Positions 17,578 to 25,026 of a stretch of 64,000 nucleotides of DNA are shown here, piece by piece. Every line of letters starts with the position of its first letter. Position 1 is the first letter of the stretch. The position numbers and the translations under genes were made by a program. This stretch comes from Haloarcula taiwanensis (GTDB taxonomy: Archaea > Halobacteriota > Halobacteria > Halobacteriales > Haloarculaceae): assembly GCA_002844335.1 (NCBI GenBank), contig CP019154.1, positions 1,116,001 through 1,180,000 on the forward strand, written 5' to 3'. The notes beneath the pieces were generated by a model. That model was not told where the DNA came from. It made no database searches and saw only the letters and a program-made list of their open reading frames with translations.

Positions 17578-19002
17578 TTACCGGAGATAGCCCAGCTCTT
17601 CCAGCTGTTTTTCGACATCATCATCAAGCGCCTGTCCGTCCTTCTGATCCTTCCGAACGCCCTTAGTTTCGAAGCTGTCGTAAACGGCTCCCAGAGACGA
17701 TTCCTCGTCGTCTCGCGGATAGGACACCTGAGCGTTCTCTATCAGTATCGTTCGCGCCGTCGATCCGTGGTCGGCGACCTTTCTGACGCGGTCGCCGTCC
17801 TGTCGATAGACCGCTCGCCACGGGCCGCCGTATTTCGACCGGTCCTGACACGCTGCCGGTAACACTCGTTCCGGCTGTTCGAGACGGTGGGTCATGGCAA
17901 TCGCATGATCGTCGACGGTGAACGATCCACGCTCGCCGTCGATCTCGTTTCTGACTACGTCGGGGAACCGGGTGAGGCTCGCGATCCGGTTCTCGACGAC
18001 GCCGTCTGACTCGCCCGGCCGGCTAACGACGAGCGGGACGTGCGTCTGTACCTCGCTGATCCCCCAGCTGTGGTCCGCGACCTGAACACTGGGGTCGATA
18101 CGACTTCGCTCGCCGAATCCCTCGCCATGGTCGCTTGTGATGACCAGCAGTGTTTCGTCTAGATCGCCTCGGTCCCTGAGCGCCGCTGTGAGGGACTCCA
18201 TCGCGGCATCGAGTTGCCTGATACACCCGTCGTAGAGACTCTCCACCGCCCGGAGCTTCCACCAGTCCCCGTCGGTGGCAATCTCTCGTGACGGTGGGGC
18301 CGGCAGGGAATCGTGGAGGGCCTGTAACTCGTCGCCACCCCACTGATCGTACTCCGCGCCCGGCTCGTACGGGTAGTGTGCGCCCATCAGGTTGAGACAC
18401 GCCGCCCATGGCCCGTTCCGGGACCCTGACCAGTCCAGAAACGAATCGATGTATTCAGTGGCTGACTCGTCTTCCGCCTCGGTTCCGCCGTCGTAATACT
18501 GGAAGTACAGCCCGTTGATCACCGACCGCAGCGGCGCATCGCTGTTGAAACACCGAGTGAGGTACTCGCGGTTCGTCTGATGCCCTTCGACATCTGAGGG
18601 TGCGATTCCCTCCTCAAAGTAGCGGTGACCCGGGTCCTGTCGCGGCCCGTCGACAGTCTGGAACGGTTCGACGAGGTTCGAGGAGACGCTGACGACGACG
18701 TTTGGGGTGAAGACACCCGTCTCATAGCCGTAGTCGTCCGCGAGCTCGCGCCAGATCGTGCTCTCCGGGTCCAGTTCCGATTCGTGCTTGGTCACGCCGT
18801 GCTCAGGGACGTGATAACCGGTAAAAATGCTCGCGTGGCTCGCAACGCTGTGAATACTCGGCGCACGCGCCTGTTCGTACACCTCTGCCTCGTCGGCGAA
18901 CCGTTCGAGAAACGGCGTCGTCCGGGCACCGTACCCGTAGAGACTCATGTTTTTCGCCCGGACGCTATCGAGAATGACGAGGAGAACGTTCGGCGGATCC
19001 AT
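17578..19002 (-). CDS. Sulfatase-like alkaline phosphatase superfamily protein with Ser nucleophile
   Basis: Protein of 474 residues from the ATG at 19002; an upstream TTG start at 19026 is unlikely. N-terminal metal site NVLLVILDSVRAKNMSLYGY. The active-site loop is ARAPSIHSVASHASIFTG, where Ser replaces the formylglycine Cys and His replaces Arg. The second metal site is LVITSDHGEGFGERS. It is a close relative of the gene at 21358-22812: shared blocks include GPWAACLNLMGAHYPYEPG and the length. No signal peptide. C-terminal tail QLEELGYLR. Likely a cytoplasmic phospho- or sulfo-transfer or hydrolysis enzyme in glycan synthesis. Confidence 0.8.
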   Translation of the reverse strand: MDPPNVLLVILDSVRAKNMSLYGYGARTTPFLERFADEAEVYEQARAPSIHSVASHASIFTGYHVPEHGVTKHESELDPESTIWRELADDYGYETGVFTPNVVVSVSSNLVEPFQTVDGPRQDPGHRYFEEGIAPSDVEGHQTNREYLTRCFNSDAPLRSVINGLYFQYYDGGTEAEDESATEYIDSFLDWSGSRNGPWAACLNLMGAHYPYEPGAEYDQWGGDELQALHDSLPAPPSREIATDGDWWKLRAVESLYDGCIRQLDAAMESLTAALRDRGDLDETLLVITSDHGEGFGERSRIDPSVQVADHSWGISEVQTHVPLVVSRPGESDGVVENRIASLTRFPDVVRNEIDGERGSFTVDDHAIAMTHRLEQPERVLPAACQDRSKYGGPWRAVYRQDGDRVRKVADHGSTARTILIENAQVSYPRDDEESSLGAVYDSFETKGVRKDQKDGQALDDDVEKQLEELGYLR

Positions 19003-19090
19003 TGTGTTGAGTGACCGGAGTGGCAATAATATGTCTTTCGTGAACTGCGGCGCGTAAAATACCGAGCGTGATCAATGCCAAAACGCCAGA

Positions 19091-19100
19091 TATAACGGTT
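19091..19100 (+). promoter_or_regulatory. TATA-like element of the GT4 gene
   Basis: TATAACGGTT lies about 32 bases before the ATG at 19128. It supports that ATG over the upstream GTG of the same frame. Confidence 0.5.
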
Positions 19101-19127
19101 AACTCCACCACTGCTCCACCACCACTC

Positions 19128-20309
19128 ATGCCGCGGGTTCTCGTCGGGCCGACCAAGGCGGATATGTCCAACGACGAATACGGGAAGAGCTACAATCTCT
19201 TGAATAATCTCTACGACGACGACTTTACTGTCGACACGTACACGCGGACGGTCTCCGACCGGCTTGACCCCGAAAACGTCACTGTGTACCCGCTCGGTGG
19301 CGCTAACCGGATCGCGTACTACGTGAAGTTGTACCGGACGCTTCTGGGAGATTTACGCACTGGTCCTGTAGACATATACCACCATATGAACCTTAGCTAT
19401 CGGTGGTTCAATCCGCTTCTGGTTTCGGGCCTTCAGGGAGACGTCCCGATCGTCATCGGACCATGTCAGGCGGGACACGCGATTATGGCTGAGGAGTTCA
19501 ACCGCATGGTCTCCTCGTGGGTGGGGTCGGATCTGCCGCGTCCACTTACGGACCCGCTACACGCGGCTGTCGACGCAACGCGTGACGCGGTTCTGGACCC
19601 GCCCCGGATGGAACTATTCGAGCGAACGCTGGAAGCCGCTGACCGGGTCGTCGTCGTCCACGAGGAAGCTCGGGACGTGTACGCCGAGTTGGTCGACGAG
19701 TCAAAGCTCCGGACGATCCCGCTCGGCGTGGATCCGGATCTCTTCGAGTACAGCGAGCCTGCCGACTCCAAGGTGCTCGTGGCTATCGGGAGTCTCAGGG
19801 AACGGAAGGGCTACGATATCCTGTTCGATGCACTTGACATAATCCGACAGGAGCATCCAGATGTCCATCTCAACATCTTCGGTGATGGGCCGCTGGAAGA
19901 CGAACTGCACGAGCAGGTTGAGCACCTCGATCTGGAGGAGAACGTCACGTTCCACGGGTACGTCGACCAGTCAATCGTCCGGGAACACCTGTCGCAGGCG
20001 CGTGCCTTCATCCACCCGTCCCGGTCGGAGAGCTTCTCCCTCGTCCGTCTGGAAGCGATGTCAACCGGCTGTCCGGTGGTCGTCACCGATATATCCGGGG
20101 CGCGCGAGATGGTCCGCGACGGGGAGGAGGGCTTTGTCGTTCCGACAGAGTCACCGGAACCAATCGCAGACGCCGTCACCACCTTGCTCTCCGATTACGA
20201 ACTCACGAAACATATAGCCAGACAGGCACGAGACCGTGTTGAGGAGAAGTACGACTGGCAGAAAATCGCGGAGGAGTACCTCGACCTGTACCGTTCGCTG
20301 TCTGGCTAA
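19128..20309 (+). CDS. GT4 glycosyltransferase
   Basis: GT-B fold glycosyltransferase of 393 residues. Begins MPRVLVGPTKADMSNDEYGKSYN. The C-terminal domain contains VLVAIGSLRERKGYDILFDAL, LNIFGDGPLEDEL, VTFHGYVDQ and SRSESFSLVRLEAMSTGCPVVVTDISGAREMVRDGEEGFV, where the E-x7-E type motif binds the donor sugar nucleotide. The upstream GTG at 19068 would add 20 residues of non-family sequence. It sits between two paralogous sulfatase-like genes and is followed by a phosphodiesterase-like gene, suggesting one sub-pathway. Confidence 0.88.
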   Translation: MPRVLVGPTKADMSNDEYGKSYNLLNNLYDDDFTVDTYTRTVSDRLDPENVTVYPLGGANRIAYYVKLYRTLLGDLRTGPVDIYHHMNLSYRWFNPLLVSGLQGDVPIVIGPCQAGHAIMAEEFNRMVSSWVGSDLPRPLTDPLHAAVDATRDAVLDPPRMELFERTLEAADRVVVVHEEARDVYAELVDESKLRTIPLGVDPDLFEYSEPADSKVLVAIGSLRERKGYDILFDALDIIRQEHPDVHLNIFGDGPLEDELHEQVEHLDLEENVTFHGYVDQSIVREHLSQARAFIHPSRSESFSLVRLEAMSTGCPVVVTDISGAREMVRDGEEGFVVPTESPEPIADAVTTLLSDYELTKHIARQARDRVEEKYDWQKIAEEYLDLYRSLSG

Positions 20310-20377
20310 GGTCGCACCGACGTCTATCGCGTGCATCGAAAGGTCTTAAGCCGTCGACTGAGACGTTCGAGGTAAAT

Positions 20378-21355
20378 ATGGTCCTCGTAGTGCTGGGTAT
20401 CGATGCACTCGACCCGGAACTAGTAGACTCGACGGCACATCCGAATTTGACGCTCGCTGATCACCACGCTATCGAGACGATCAGGAGCGTCGAGGGCGGC
20501 CCCAGCACGCACGAACTCTGGCCGACGATCATTACCGGCCTCAGGCCACCGGAACACGGGATCACGCTCGACAACGGCGTCGCCTGGGAGAACCCTGCCC
20601 TCCGATTCGGGAGCGCTGCCGCGGATTACCTCCTCCCGTCGGGGCTGCAGACGCGTCTCGGGGCGTGGCTACTGAATAACACCGAACAGGACGCGTTTCG
20701 GATCCCGGCGACGTATTACGAGGAGAACGGCCTGTCGACAGTGTTCGACGGCCGAGAGGCGGCACCAATCGGCATCCCGAACTACGTGATCGACCCGGAC
20801 ACCGAGGACCGCGAGCACAGCCTTCGGCGAAACCTCGGCGACCTCTTCGAGCGCGACCTCGAAGCGAAAGGCGGGCACTCGTCGACGGACCCGGCGCTGT
20901 TCTACGAGCAGTGCCTCGAAATGTCGATGGTTCGCCTCGCTCGCGCACGACGGGCGCTCAGAGGCGGCCGACACGAACTGGTGTTTGCATACACGAGCGG
21001 GCTCGACCTCGTCGGCCACGTCGCGTACGAACAGCCATCGCTGCAGGACCGCGCCTACGAGGAACTCGACGAGTTCGTCGGCGAGGTCCGTGACGACCTC
21101 GGTGACAACGACGAGCTACTGCTCGTCAGCGACCACGGTCTGCAGGACGGGGTCCACACCGACGAGGCGATGATTGCGGGGACCGACGCGGCCATGGTCG
21201 ACGCGATCGAGAGCGTCGTCGACGTCCGTGCGGCCATCGAAGCAGAACTCGACGGGACCGACCACACGTCGACGCCGCAGGTGACGGCGTCGCACGACGG
21301 CGACCGGTCAGGGGAGGAAGTCAAGGAGCATCTCGAAGACCTCGGGTATATGTAG
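20378..21355 (+). CDS. Type I phosphodiesterase/nucleotide pyrophosphatase-like protein
   Basis: Alkaline phosphatase superfamily protein of 325 residues. N-terminal metal site VLVVLGIDALDPELVD. The nucleophile region is GPSTHELWPTIITGLRPPEHGIT, where the Thr of WPTIITG aligns with the nucleophile of nucleotide pyrophosphatases. AYTSGLDLVGHVAYEQ and LLLVSDHGLQDGVHTDE supply further metal ligands. No signal peptide. The C-terminus HLEDLGYM matches the tails of the four sulfatase-like proteins nearby. The stop is followed two bases later by the next start, so it is co-transcribed with the Ser-type enzyme at 21358. TATA-like ggtcttaagcc lies about 31 bases before the ATG. Confidence 0.8.
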   Translation: MVLVVLGIDALDPELVDSTAHPNLTLADHHAIETIRSVEGGPSTHELWPTIITGLRPPEHGITLDNGVAWENPALRFGSAAADYLLPSGLQTRLGAWLLNNTEQDAFRIPATYYEENGLSTVFDGREAAPIGIPNYVIDPDTEDREHSLRRNLGDLFERDLEAKGGHSSTDPALFYEQCLEMSMVRLARARRALRGGRHELVFAYTSGLDLVGHVAYEQPSLQDRAYEELDEFVGEVRDDLGDNDELLLVSDHGLQDGVHTDEAMIAGTDAAMVDAIESVVDVRAAIEAELDGTDHTSTPQVTASHDGDRSGEEVKEHLEDLGYM

Positions 21356-21357
21356 CT

Positions 21358-22812
21358 ATGTCGGACGATCCAAACGTCTTGCTGGTCATCCTCGACAGCG
21401 CCCGGGCACAGAACCTCAGCGCCTACGGCCACGTCAACGAGACGACGCCGTTTCTGGACTCCTTTGCCGCGGAGCGGGCGACACTGTACGAGCAGGCCCG
21501 GGCCCCCGGTGCGCGGAGCGTCACGAGCCACGCGAGCATCTTCTCCGGTCTACACGTCGAAGAACACGGCGTCGTCTCGGCGGGCCACCGGCTGGACCCC
21601 TCGGCGTCGGTATTCTCGCAGTTGCGCGAGGACGGCTACGAAACGGGCGTGTTCACCGAGAACGACTGGCTGACGGCCGTCGATGTCGGACTCCGGGACG
21701 GGTTCGACGAGGTCGTCGGTGCACGGAACGTCCCGTTCCCGGGCGCAGTCAATCCCCACGAGTTCGTCTCGAACGAGGGGCGGGGCCAGTACGCGGAGTT
21801 CGTCAAACTCGCGCTAACAGACGACGCGCCGCTCCGGTCGCTGGCAAACGGTGTGGCGACGAAACTCCAGTCCGATTACAAGCGGCTCCTCCCGGACAGC
21901 GTCAGAGCGTCGACGCCGGCGGACGTCTACGTGGATTCGCTGCTGGACTGGAGCGACCGGCAGGAGGGGCCGTGGGCGGCGTGTCTCAACCTGATGGACG
22001 CACACATTCCGTACGAACCGATGCCCGAATACGACCAGTGGGGCGGCTCGGAGGCGTCGTCGCTGCAGGCCTCCTTCGAGGACCAGAAGTGGGACTTCAA
22101 CGGCGGCCACCGGCCGTGGTGGCAAAAGAAGGCGGTGGAGTCGTTGTACGATGGGGCGATTCGCCAGATGGACGCGGAGCTCGAACGGTTGGTTTCGGCA
22201 CTGGAACAGCGTGGCGAACTCGAAAACACCCTCCTCGTCATCACGAGCGACCACGGTGAAGGATTCGGCGAACGGAGCGACGTGCGGCCGGGCGTCCGGG
22301 TCGCAGAGCACGGCGTCACGATTCACGACAGCGTGCTCCACGTCCCGCTCATCGTGCGCCATCCGGGCCAGACCGAACCCCAACGGGTCGACGGTCCCGC
22401 GTCGCTGGTCGAATTTCCGCGGGTCGTGAATCGGCTTCGAGACGGAGACCGGCAGCCGGCCGGCTTCTGTCCTGACGGGCCGGTCCTCGCCACTGCGGTC
22501 GGCCTCGACGAACCGCTGCAGGAGCGTGCCGGTGCGTACGTCGACGACCTGTCGCCGTGGACTGCCACGTCGCGAGCGGTGTTCGAAGACGATAGCGAGG
22601 GCGTTGTCAAGTACTGTACTAGCCGCGACCACGCCGCCACAGTTGTCAGCCGCGACGCCCAGACGTCCTACAAGGTTTCCGACGACGGTGCGGAACACGT
22701 CGACCGTGCGTTCGAGTCGATAAAGGAACGCGACGTCAAGACGGCGGGCGAGGACTTCGACGACCTCGACGACAGGACATACCAGCGACTGGAGGACCTT
22801 GGCTACGTCTGA
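21358..22812 (+). CDS. Sulfatase-like alkaline phosphatase superfamily protein with Ser nucleophile
   Basis: Protein of 484 residues, paralogue of the gene at 17578-19002. N-terminal metal site NVLLVILDSARAQNLSAYGH. Active-site loop ARAPGARSVTSHASIFSG, with Ser at the formylglycine position and His in place of Arg. Second metal site LVITSDHGEGFGERSD. Blocks GPWAACLNLMDAHIPYEP and EYDQWGGSEASSL are shared with the paralogue. C-terminal tail RLEDLGYV. No signal peptide. Its last 10 bases overlap the convergent TrmB-like gene. Standard formylglycine sulfatase chemistry is not expected from the sequence. Confidence 0.8.
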   Translation: MSDDPNVLLVILDSARAQNLSAYGHVNETTPFLDSFAAERATLYEQARAPGARSVTSHASIFSGLHVEEHGVVSAGHRLDPSASVFSQLREDGYETGVFTENDWLTAVDVGLRDGFDEVVGARNVPFPGAVNPHEFVSNEGRGQYAEFVKLALTDDAPLRSLANGVATKLQSDYKRLLPDSVRASTPADVYVDSLLDWSDRQEGPWAACLNLMDAHIPYEPMPEYDQWGGSEASSLQASFEDQKWDFNGGHRPWWQKKAVESLYDGAIRQMDAELERLVSALEQRGELENTLLVITSDHGEGFGERSDVRPGVRVAEHGVTIHDSVLHVPLIVRHPGQTEPQRVDGPASLVEFPRVVNRLRDGDRQPAGFCPDGPVLATAVGLDEPLQERAGAYVDDLSPWTATSRAVFEDDSEGVVKYCTSRDHAATVVSRDAQTSYKVSDDGAEHVDRAFESIKERDVKTAGEDFDDLDDRTYQRLEDLGYV

Positions 22813-23651
22813 CGGGCCGTGTCGACGCTCTCATACTCCCAGATCAGATCGAAGTAGCGCTGCATCCCAGCGACGAACGAGCCGTTGTCCGTGAGTGCGG
22901 CCTGCCGCATGTGGTTGGGAACGTCCGGCTCCTCGACCAGTAGAATCGCCTCACCGCTGTCGTAGTCCATGCTCGGATCGACGAGCGTCCCGCGCCAGGG
23001 GAGTTTCTCCGTGCTGAATCGCAGGTCGACAGCAGGGTACTCCGAGGCCAGTTGGTCGACGATGTCGGCCTGAACAGCAGCCTTCTCCGCTGGTAGCTCG
23101 TCGGGATGCAAGAAGAGAACGCTGACCTCGACTCCACGGTCGAGTGTCTCCGCCAGTGCGCGTTCGACGCTATCGAGGTAGGCGAAGCTATTGGTGATGA
23201 CACGAAGCGTCGCTTCGGCGTCATCATACAGCCGGCGGGTCTCGCGTTCGCTTGGTTCGCCCACGTCGACGACGTGGAACAGTTCTGCCGTCGGCGAGAT
23301 GTCTTCGCTTGCCCGTTCAAACCGTGGTTCGTACTCGGCGAGGAAGGCTTCGCGGTAGGAGTCGATGTCTGTGGCAAACGATTCGTATGATTGCCTGCGG
23401 TTCTCGACGGCCCGGTCGAGGATTTCGCCAGGCGATTTCGGCTGGTACTCTTTGGGACGGCCGGGAATCACCTTGATGAATCCGCGGTCGGAGAGCGACT
23501 CCAGCACGCCGTAGACGCGGGCCTTGGGGATGCTGCTCGCTTCCGCGAGATTCGGGGCCGTCGTTCGGCCGAGCGAGAGCAGCTGTTCCAGCGCTGTCGC
23601 CTCGTATTCGGTCAGCCCGACTAGGTCGAACACGTCCGCAGGGTCGCTCAT
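22803..23651 (-). CDS. TrmB family transcriptional regulator
   Basis: Regulator of 282 residues. Residues 8-75 form the TrmB winged helix (VGLTEYEATALEQLLSLGRTTAPNLAEASSIPKARVYGVLESLSDRGFIKVIPGRPKEYQP). A coiled linker follows (ILDRAVENRRQSYESFATDIDSYREAFL). Residues 115-275 are a PLD-like fold domain such as TrmB proteins carry (VITNSFAYLDSVERALAETLDRGVEVSVLFL). It lacks the longer C-terminal sugar-binding extension of full-length TrmB. It lies divergent from a 35-residue gene whose start abuts a palindrome of the TrmB type, so local regulation is likely. The effector may be a sugar or sugar nucleotide (inference). Confidence 0.88.
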   Translation of the reverse strand: MSDPADVFDLVGLTEYEATALEQLLSLGRTTAPNLAEASSIPKARVYGVLESLSDRGFIKVIPGRPKEYQPKSPGEILDRAVENRRQSYESFATDIDSYREAFLAEYEPRFERASEDISPTAELFHVVDVGEPSERETRRLYDDAEATLRVITNSFAYLDSVERALAETLDRGVEVSVLFLHPDELPAEKAAVQADIVDQLASEYPAVDLRFSTEKLPWRGTLVDPSMDYDSGEAILLVEEPDVPNHMRQAALTDNGSFVAGMQRYFDLIWEYESVDTARQT

Positions 23652-23725
23652 ACACGCTCATGTGTGGCAGGGAATGTAAAACGCGTCGCCCGCCGCCCAA
23701 ATCTATTAGTGGGTGGCGGCGAGTA

Positions 23726-23746
23726 GTTACTCGCAGAGTGAGTAAC
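23726..23746. promoter_or_regulatory. TrmB-like palindromic operator
   Basis: GTTACTC-N7-GAGTAAC is a perfect 21-base inverted repeat ending on the base before the ATG at 23747. It contains TACT-N8-GAGTA, the form published for the Halobacterium TrmB site (TACT-N7/8-GAGTA). It lies 75 bases ahead of the trmB-like start on the other strand. A bound protein here would sit over the transcript or translation start of the small gene, as for repression. Confidence 0.65.
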
Positions 23747-23854
23747 ATGACTGCGACATCCCAGACAGAGGAAGACGATCACCTGGCAGACATCGAAGAC
23801 GGCTGTGGCTGTGCGGAGGTCTGGGAGCACATGAGCGAGCAGCGCAACGACTGA
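23747..23854 (+). CDS. 35-residue acidic Cys-containing small protein
   Basis: Reads MTATSQTEEDDHLADIEDG then CGCAEVWEHMSEQRND. Acidic, with a central CGC pair followed by AEVWEH. Two close cysteines and a His could bind a metal or be redox-active, but the function is not known. Evidence that it is real: normal haloarchaeal codon use, a perfect palindromic operator directly before the ATG, and its position divergent from the TrmB-like regulator and before a glycosyltransferase. A longer frame to 23660 exists, but that part has no protein-like character. Confidence 0.6.
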   Translation: MTATSQTEEDDHLADIEDGCGCAEVWEHMSEQRND

Positions 23855-23943: not shown

Positions 23944-23953
23944 GCATTTATTT
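23944..23953 (+). promoter_or_regulatory. TATA-like element of the GT2 gene at 23980
   Basis: GCATTTATTT lies about 30 bases before the ATG at 23980 and supports that start over the longer frame beginning at 23863. Confidence 0.5.
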
Positions 23954-23979
23954 GTCTTCGCGTGGATGACGTTGAGTCA

Positions 23980-25026
23980 ATGGCCGACCGAGACGACGTC
24001 TGTATACTGTTGCCGACGTTCAACGAGGCAGAGACCATCGAGTCGGTCGTGTCCGGGTTTCGTGAGCAGGGCTTTACCAACGTTCTCGTCATTGACGGCG
24101 GCTCGACCGACGGAACACAGGAGGCTGCCGAGTCAGCCGGCGCGCGAGTCGTCGAACAGTCCGGCTCGGGGAAGGGGCAGGCCGTCAGAGAGGCGGTGAC
24201 GCGTCACATCGAGCAGCCGTACGTCCTGATGGCCGACGGCGACGCGACCTATCGGCCCGACGAGGCGGACAGGCTACTCGAACCGCTGTTGTCAGGCCAG
24301 GCCGCCCACGTCATCGGAAACCGGTTTGCGGATATGCGACCCGGCGCGATGACGAAACTGAATCAGATCGGCAACCGCATCATTAACAGTGCCTTCGAAA
24401 CGATTCACGGACGGGACCTCACCGATATCCTCTCCGGGTATCGAGCCTTTACGCGCCAGTCCTTCCAGCGGAGCTCGCTGACGGCTTCTGGCTTCGGTAT
24501 CGAGACGGAGATGGCCGTCGAGTGTGTCAAACACAATATCTCGACGACGGTGGTGCCGATCACCTACCAGCCCCGGCCCGACGAGTCCGACACGAACCTC
24601 CGTCCGTTCCGGGACGGCGCGACAATCATCCTGACGCTGTACCAGATGGCAAAGACCAACAATCCACTGTTTTATTTTGGGAGCGTTGGCCTCGGGAGCA
24701 CTGTGGTCGGGTTCCTCCTCGGCGCGTACGTGGCCTATGACTGGGTCGTCAACAGCATCTCACACGAGGTGATCGCAGTTGTCGGCTCGTTCGCCATTCT
24801 GCTGGGGATTCAGCTCCTCATGTTCGGCGTCCTGTCTGATATGCTCGTGGCGGTAAACCGCGAACAGACACGCCGCCTAGAGGACATTGCTGTCCAGCTC
24901 ACACACGAGACCCGCGATCAGCCGGCGGACGTGTTCGACGACCAGCCGGTCGGTGACGCGGAGGGTACCGGAGAGAGTGATACAGAGACAACGCCAGCGG
25001 TCTCTCCGCACCAGCCCGACGAGTAG
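23980..25026 (+). CDS. AglJ-like dolichyl-phosphate GT2 glycosyltransferase
   Basis: Enzyme of 348 residues. The N-terminal GT2 domain has VCILLPTFNEAETIESVVSGF, VLVIDGGSTDGTQEAAESAGARVVEQSGSGKGQAVREAV and the donor site LMADGDATYRPDEA. GRDLTDILSGYRAFTRQSFQ is typical of dolichyl-phosphate sugar transferases. Two C-terminal hydrophobic helices lie near residues 230-290. It resembles haloarchaeal AglJ, which charges dolichyl phosphate with the first hexose of the N-glycan; the symbol is withheld because the assignment rests on resemblance. The last 50 residues are an acidic disordered tail. The ATG at 23980 is chosen by TATA spacing. Confidence 0.75.
   Translation: MADRDDVCILLPTFNEAETIESVVSGFREQGFTNVLVIDGGSTDGTQEAAESAGARVVEQSGSGKGQAVREAVTRHIEQPYVLMADGDATYRPDEADRLLEPLLSGQAAHVIGNRFADMRPGAMTKLNQIGNRIINSAFETIHGRDLTDILSGYRAFTRQSFQRSSLTASGFGIETEMAVECVKHNISTTVVPITYQPRPDESDTNLRPFRDGATIILTLYQMAKTNNPLFYFGSVGLGSTVVGFLLGAYVAYDWVVNSISHEVIAVVGSFAILLGIQLLMFGVLSDMLVAVNREQTRRLEDIAVQLTHETRDQPADVFDDQPVGDAEGTGESDTETTPAVSPHQPDE

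Follow-up and report, generated by a model that had tools for sequence, protein, structure and literature searches.

In the haloarchaea Hbt. salinarum and Har. hispanica the transcriptional regulator TrmB (VNG_1451C / HAH_1548) has a PF01978 winged helix with a DNA-contacting Tyr. It recognizes TACTC...GAGTA half-sites and represses when the site is downstream of the TATA box; its regulon extends widely over carbon metabolism. The TrmB proteins of Pyrococcus and Thermococcus have a TACT-N3-AGTA operator and are local operon repressors, which act near their own target. TrmBL2 of the Thermococcales (PDB 5box/5bpd/5bqt) has a winged helix-turn-helix (wHTH), a long helix and a PLD-like domain, and it lacks the 70 C-terminal residues that bear the sugar-binding domain of TrmB (PMC4158304). 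It is a chromatin protein that binds coding as well as intergenic DNA (PMC4158304). OxsR of Hfx. volcanii is also a haloarchaeal PF01978 protein without a sugar domain; it consists of a single wHTH with a sensor Cys, its motif is CG-rich, and the place of the motif relative to the TATA box sets the direction of regulation.

Here we describe a locus of Haloarcula taiwanensis in which a further member of this family is divergent from a very small gene with a palindrome at its start. The window, i.e. the whole stretch of 64,000 nucleotides that was analysed, contains the following features:

22803-23651, minus strand: TrmB-family regulator, 282 aa, TrmBL2-like (PF01978; orthologs; model and fold match)
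23703-23709, plus strand: TATA-like box CTATTAG of the presumed microprotein promoter, about 32 nt before the GTG at 23738, read from the sequence
23726-23746, no strand: putative operator GTTACTC-N7-GAGTAAC; the GTG of the microprotein and the predicted transcription start fall within it
23738-23854, plus strand: microprotein gene, predicted direct target, 38 aa from GTG (GTG kept in 24/24 relatives; family alignment; homologs in 265/293 genomes)
23980-25026, plus strand: aglJ, S-layer N-glycosyltransferase (TIGR04182, 462.5 bits, above the cut-off of 325)

We consider it highly likely that the palindrome is the operator of the divergent TrmBL2-like repressor, and that this protein governs a small regulon composed of the microprotein and an operon for sulfo-sugar synthesis (sqd). 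If so, a hitherto uncharacterised branch of the TrmB family would gain a precisely defined operator and regulon; its member described here is built like TrmBL2, a chromatin protein, yet seems to be a specific repressor. The archaeal sulfo-sugar pathway would likewise gain a transcriptional switch; among open-access full texts a single paper was found that deals with both TrmB and sulfoquinovose, and no such regulator is described in it.

The regulator

The 282-aa protein matches PF01978 with E 5e-19 and 68.3 bits (cut-off 25.6). The initial annotation had described it as a short TrmB-family protein without the long sugar-binding end, and this description is supported: the profile of the TrmB sugar-binding domain (PF11495) gave no match to the regulator, and its AlphaFold model (pLDDT 88) has a wHTH, a long helix and a PLD-like domain. 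A Foldseek search with this model found TrmBL2 as the best match (E 4e-18), followed by TrmB; the profile search agrees (TrmBL2, 3e-20), at an identity of about 23%. Hence the predicted structure contains the wHTH and the truncated PLD-like C-terminal domain of the TrmBL2 type, while the putative binding site (GTTACTC-N7-GAGTAAC) is a palindromic operator of the TACT..AGTA type, as in the TrmB family.

The regulator is nonetheless distinct from each described system. It belongs to a different ortholog group than the haloarchaeal TrmB proteins, since its match to the NF047392 profile reaches only 37.7 bits, over residues 7-92, and the cut-off is 500 bits. Its Tyr47 is invariant and the next residue, Gly48, nearly so; the DNA-contacting pair of Pfu TrmB (Y50, D51) has Asp at this position, and the haloarchaeal TrmB proteins also have the Tyr-Asp pair. 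In place of a wide carbon-metabolism regulon there are two exact operator sites in the genome. The TACT/AGTA half-site and the location near its own target are shared with Pyrococcus and Thermococcus TrmB, but there the spacing is N3 instead of N7, the arms are shorter and a sugar-binding domain is present. Unlike OxsR, the regulator has no Cys, and its site is a TTACTC palindrome. TrmBL2, finally, is its nearest solved relative by fold, yet the regulator is tied to one specific putative operator and a small regulon.

The palindrome and the microprotein gene

The palindrome GTTACTCGCAGAGTGAGTAAC (23726-23746) has two perfect 7-bp arms. It contains TACT-N8-GAGTA, and an ATG follows directly at 23747, all in exact agreement with the form and the position given in the initial annotation. 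Even when three mismatches are allowed, this is the only match in the window. A genome scan for the 21-base motif, which had been proposed as a check, was extended to 293 genomes of the order with the reversed pattern as control. The 3.72-Mb genome contains two exact copies of the 21-mer; the reversed pattern occurs neither there nor in any of the 293 genomes. With 6 forward matches in the genome, the loose form TACT-N8-GAGTA falls short of its reversed control, which has 10, so that the evidence comes from the full 21-mer and not from the published form as such. All 24/24 genus-level relatives (Haloarcula) have the same left, non-coding arm, while an extra GAGTA at 23721-23725 is not conserved in relatives.

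Other copies were also seen. A site with one mismatch in the same genome (C1:2534138, L046) has no related gene downstream and looks like a chance occurrence. Two further genomes, G041 and G243, have a third exact 21-bp site (L206:3223 and L207:3164) in similar surroundings. A TATA-like box precedes it, but no gene was recognised downstream, and it may belong to an overlooked small gene or a non-coding RNA.

The small gene had been annotated as a 35-residue gene abutting the operator. That it is a real coding gene is supported by the pairwise codon differences, which are concentrated at third positions (96, 22 and 217 at positions 1, 2 and 3). Its start, however, is probably not the ATG at 23747, which gives the 35 aa, but the in-frame GTG at 23738 inside the right arm. 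The corresponding GTG is kept in 24/24 genus-level relatives, roughly half of which have no ATG at the later position; together with the GT before it (GTGAGTAAC) the right arm would therefore encode Met-Ser-Asn, and the product would have 38 aa. In other genera an ATG occupies the equal place (ATGAGTAAC) or lies 1 nt beyond the site. In 52 microprotein contexts a TATA-like element precedes the site by about 24 nt.

The next gene, aglJ, may not be a target of the operator, because it has its own TATA-like element at about 23947-23954, some 30 nt before its ATG; ATTTATTT is kept in relatives.

The second site and the sqd operon

The second exact copy lies at C1:446978-446998 of the genome (L045:8979-8999) and ends 1 nt before the ATG of sqd, which encodes a UDP-sulfoquinovose-synthase-like protein of 390 aa. 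The product matches NF041015 with E 6e-105 and 351 bits over 1-379 of 384 positions, which is below the equivalog cut-off of 575 bits. It aligns with Arabidopsis SQD1 over residues 3-364 (E 9e-72) and keeps the SAPYS..RA.YTQHNN and YxxxK stretches of that enzyme. It is thus similar to Agl3/SQD1/SqdB in this alignment and these stretches but differs in scoring under the NF041015 cut-off. Because of the homology to SQD1 it probably functions as a UDP-sulfoquinovose synthase; the predicted enzyme could also serve sulfo-quinovosamine.

The gene heads a glycosylation cluster with two epimerase genes and an STT3/AglB-like gene, and a gene for an AglM-type UDP-glucose dehydrogenase is nearby. The S-layer N-glycan of Har. 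hispanica is 6-sulfo-QuiN-(1,6)-[Glc-(1,2)-]Gal (PMC9943897), so that the surface coat of a close relative contains a sulfo-sugar. The idea that the regulator and its target are attached to a glycosylation island therefore holds in spirit, but the more telling target, the UDP-sulfoquinovose synthase operon, lies outside the window, and aglJ is a doubtful one.

A virus-like run of genes (L045:9868-18761, judged by eye) directly adjoins the sqd operon in this genome; it includes a packaging-ATPase-like protein at L045:12940-13560.

Position of the site and mode of regulation

All sites in the microprotein and sqd promoters are downstream of the TATA-like box and upstream of the start codon, where they overlap the transcription start predicted from TATA spacing alone. 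For TrmB-family regulators this is the repressing position (PMC10817205, PMC4158304), from which we infer repression by occlusion of initiation. Bound as a dimer to the two TTACTC half-sites in this position, the regulator would block transcription initiation and so repress the microprotein and sqd. Its small regulon would comprise the 38-aa microprotein and the operon that begins with the UDP-sulfoquinovose-synthase-like gene; this operon would make an activated sulfo-sugar. Since the sugar-binding subdomain of TrmB is missing from the regulator, repression would presumably be lifted by a signal tied to the supply of sulfite or nucleotide sugars. The sequences themselves show where the site lies, which two targets it has, how well it is conserved and that it depends on the presence of the regulator; that the protein binds there and represses, to which signal it responds and what the microprotein does are conclusions drawn from this.

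The regulator could also bind and activate, or be a dual regulator, at these promoters. Members of the TrmB family can activate, and TrmB of Har. hispanica activates HAH_0188 through a motif at an unusual position. We regard this as improbable here; the sites are all located over the predicted transcription start, between TATA box and start codon, where binding of TrmB-family proteins represses.

The exact site occurs only together with the regulator

The initial annotation had suggested a dedicated pair of regulator and target. The distribution of the two elements supports this proposal: among 293 genomes 87 have both the exact site and an ortholog of the regulator, 0 have the site only, 14 the regulator only and 192 neither (p 4e-60, with counts per genome and relatives that are not independent). 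The site is thus nested in the presence of the regulator. Eleven genera are mixed for the regulator; none of them has a site-bearing species without it (discordant = 0). Of the genomes with sqd, 86/100 that also have the regulator contain the exact site, against 0/22 of those that lack the regulator (p 4e-15). The 14 genomes with the regulator and no exact site yielded 13 promoters that could be scored; each has 12-13/14 matches at the same position. The scores of the 66 distinct sqd promoters are bimodal, with 48 at 11-14 and 18 at 6-10; in 37 of the 48 high-scoring promoters the site ends 1-2 nt before the ATG. The 20 regulator-less sqd promoters have a mean score of 7.8, which is about the shuffle level, and regulator-less genomes possess at most distant paralogs of the regulator. 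This co-occurrence argues for specific DNA binding by the regulator as opposed to chromatin binding in the style of TrmBL2.

Some points weigh against the proposed reading. TrmBL2, the nearest solved relative by fold, is a chromatin protein that binds DNA inside genes as well as between them. Among the regulator-less genomes, G195 has a site of 13/14 in front of sqd (L216), and weak sites of 10-11/14 occur in two others. No orthologous regulator was found in G195; possibly it was lost recently or a paralogue has taken over.

The 293 genomes also bear on a second explanation, in which the canonical, sugar-sensing TrmB binds the site as a member of its gluconeogenic regulon and the adjoining TrmB-like gene is unrelated. 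The protein concerned is encoded in the genome of Haloarcula taiwanensis:

C1:1456109-1457149: canonical TrmB (ortholog of HAH_1548, NF047392)

The site contains the published haloarchaeal form TACT-N7-8-GAGTA, for which reason cross-binding by canonical TrmB in some condition is possible, and canonical TrmB has been linked to S-layer glycosylation in Hbt. salinarum. As the actual regulator, however, it is very unlikely. NF047392 was found in 244/293 genomes, and its presence is not associated with that of the site (72/87 against 172/206, p 0.87); canonical TrmB is absent in 15 genomes with the site, the adjoining regulator in none. We take G012, whose genome has both sites (C3:1152668 and C3:468797), to be the genetic model Har. 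hispanica ATCC 33960, and in this species the cluster HAH_0486-0496 holds the sqd operon by position. Its aglJ is HAH_1214 (PMC9943897). The 15 ChIP peaks of Har. hispanica TrmB (PMC10817205) omit both aglJ/HAH_1214 and the sqd cluster. Together, co-occurrence and published peaks led us to reject canonical TrmB as the binder, and binding by another TrmB paralogue, which the initial annotation had named as refuting its proposal, is made unlikely.

That the inverted repeat is an RNA hairpin for translation control is barely credible in spite of its perfect 7-bp stem and 7-nt loop at the start codon: 0/7 pairs have a compensated change across 48 sqd sites, the observed changes break pairs and affect nearly always the left arm only, transcription is predicted to start inside the site so that the stem would not be transcribed as a whole, and the presence of the site tracks a DNA-binding protein.

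Gene order in other archaea

The neighbourhood of the regulator differs between lineages. In Haloarcula, Halorientalis and Halosimplex it adjoins the microprotein gene and aglJ; in Natrinema, Halovivax, Halostella, Haladaptatus and others it adjoins sqd, in most of them also with two epimerase genes. Homologs in Archaeoglobi adjoin sqd too, with other inverted repeats before that gene. The adjacency in haloarchaeal genera as well as in Archaeoglobi indicates that the link between regulator and sqd is probably older than the link to the microprotein and aglJ.

The repeats in the Archaeoglobi MAGs L171, L172 and L174 are TTGCTAC...GTAGCAA and TTACCACT...AGTGGTGA; the operator may have changed in this group while the pairing with sqd stayed. 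In the window, genes of the sulfatase/phosphodiesterase family (17578-19026, 20378-21355 and 21358-22812, in the stretch 17578-22812) adjoin the regulator gene, with a glycosyltransferase gene at 19068-20309 among them. Several Haloarcula species likewise have the last of these sulfatase-like genes beside the regulator.

The microprotein family

The microprotein gave no match in searches against Pfam and NCBIfam. It belongs to a family that is present in 265/293 genomes and whose alignment has the pattern HLxDxxDGCGCxE[IV]WEHLSEQR, with invariant Gly22, Gly24 and Cys25. Of 20 sampled haloarchaeal genomes, picked mostly among those without the regulator, 18 encode a paralog at a distance of 0.7-0.9 kb from a siroheme nitrite/sulfite reductase gene:

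L198:4780-7371, L199:4877-7468, L208, L209 and L247-L266: microprotein paralog and siroheme reductase

The closest PDB relatives of this siroheme enzyme are nitrite reductases, and either nitrite or sulfite may be its substrate. UDP-sulfoquinovose synthases use sulfite, and the transfer of sulfite in vivo has been described as unknown (PMC4388408). The location of the paralog hints, as a hypothesis, at a role in sulfite handling. In a tentative and rather unlikely extension the microproteins would be a new haloarchaeal sulfite-handling family, with one paralog as sulfite donor or partner of UDP-sulfoquinovose synthase and the other serving the siroheme reductase, and the repressor would match sulfo-sugar output to sulfite supply. 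In any case, the analysis brings to notice a near-universal haloarchaeal microprotein that occurs beside one sulfite-using enzyme and one enzyme of the nitrite/sulfite reductase family, a setting that bears on the delivery of sulfite to UDP-sulfoquinovose synthases in vivo (PMC4388408).

An identity of the microprotein with HAH_0188 or HAH_2805, two small proteins of Har. hispanica under TrmB control, is unsupported, because aglJ is HAH_1214 and the positions obtained by interpolation disagree. A third microprotein paralog is present in Har. hispanica (L200:6011-6109; C3, about 2,706,000) near a gene for an Obg/Era-type GTPase. In its promoter GTAAC-N5-GTAAC, a direct repeat in contrast to the palindrome at 23726-23746, immediately precedes the ATG.
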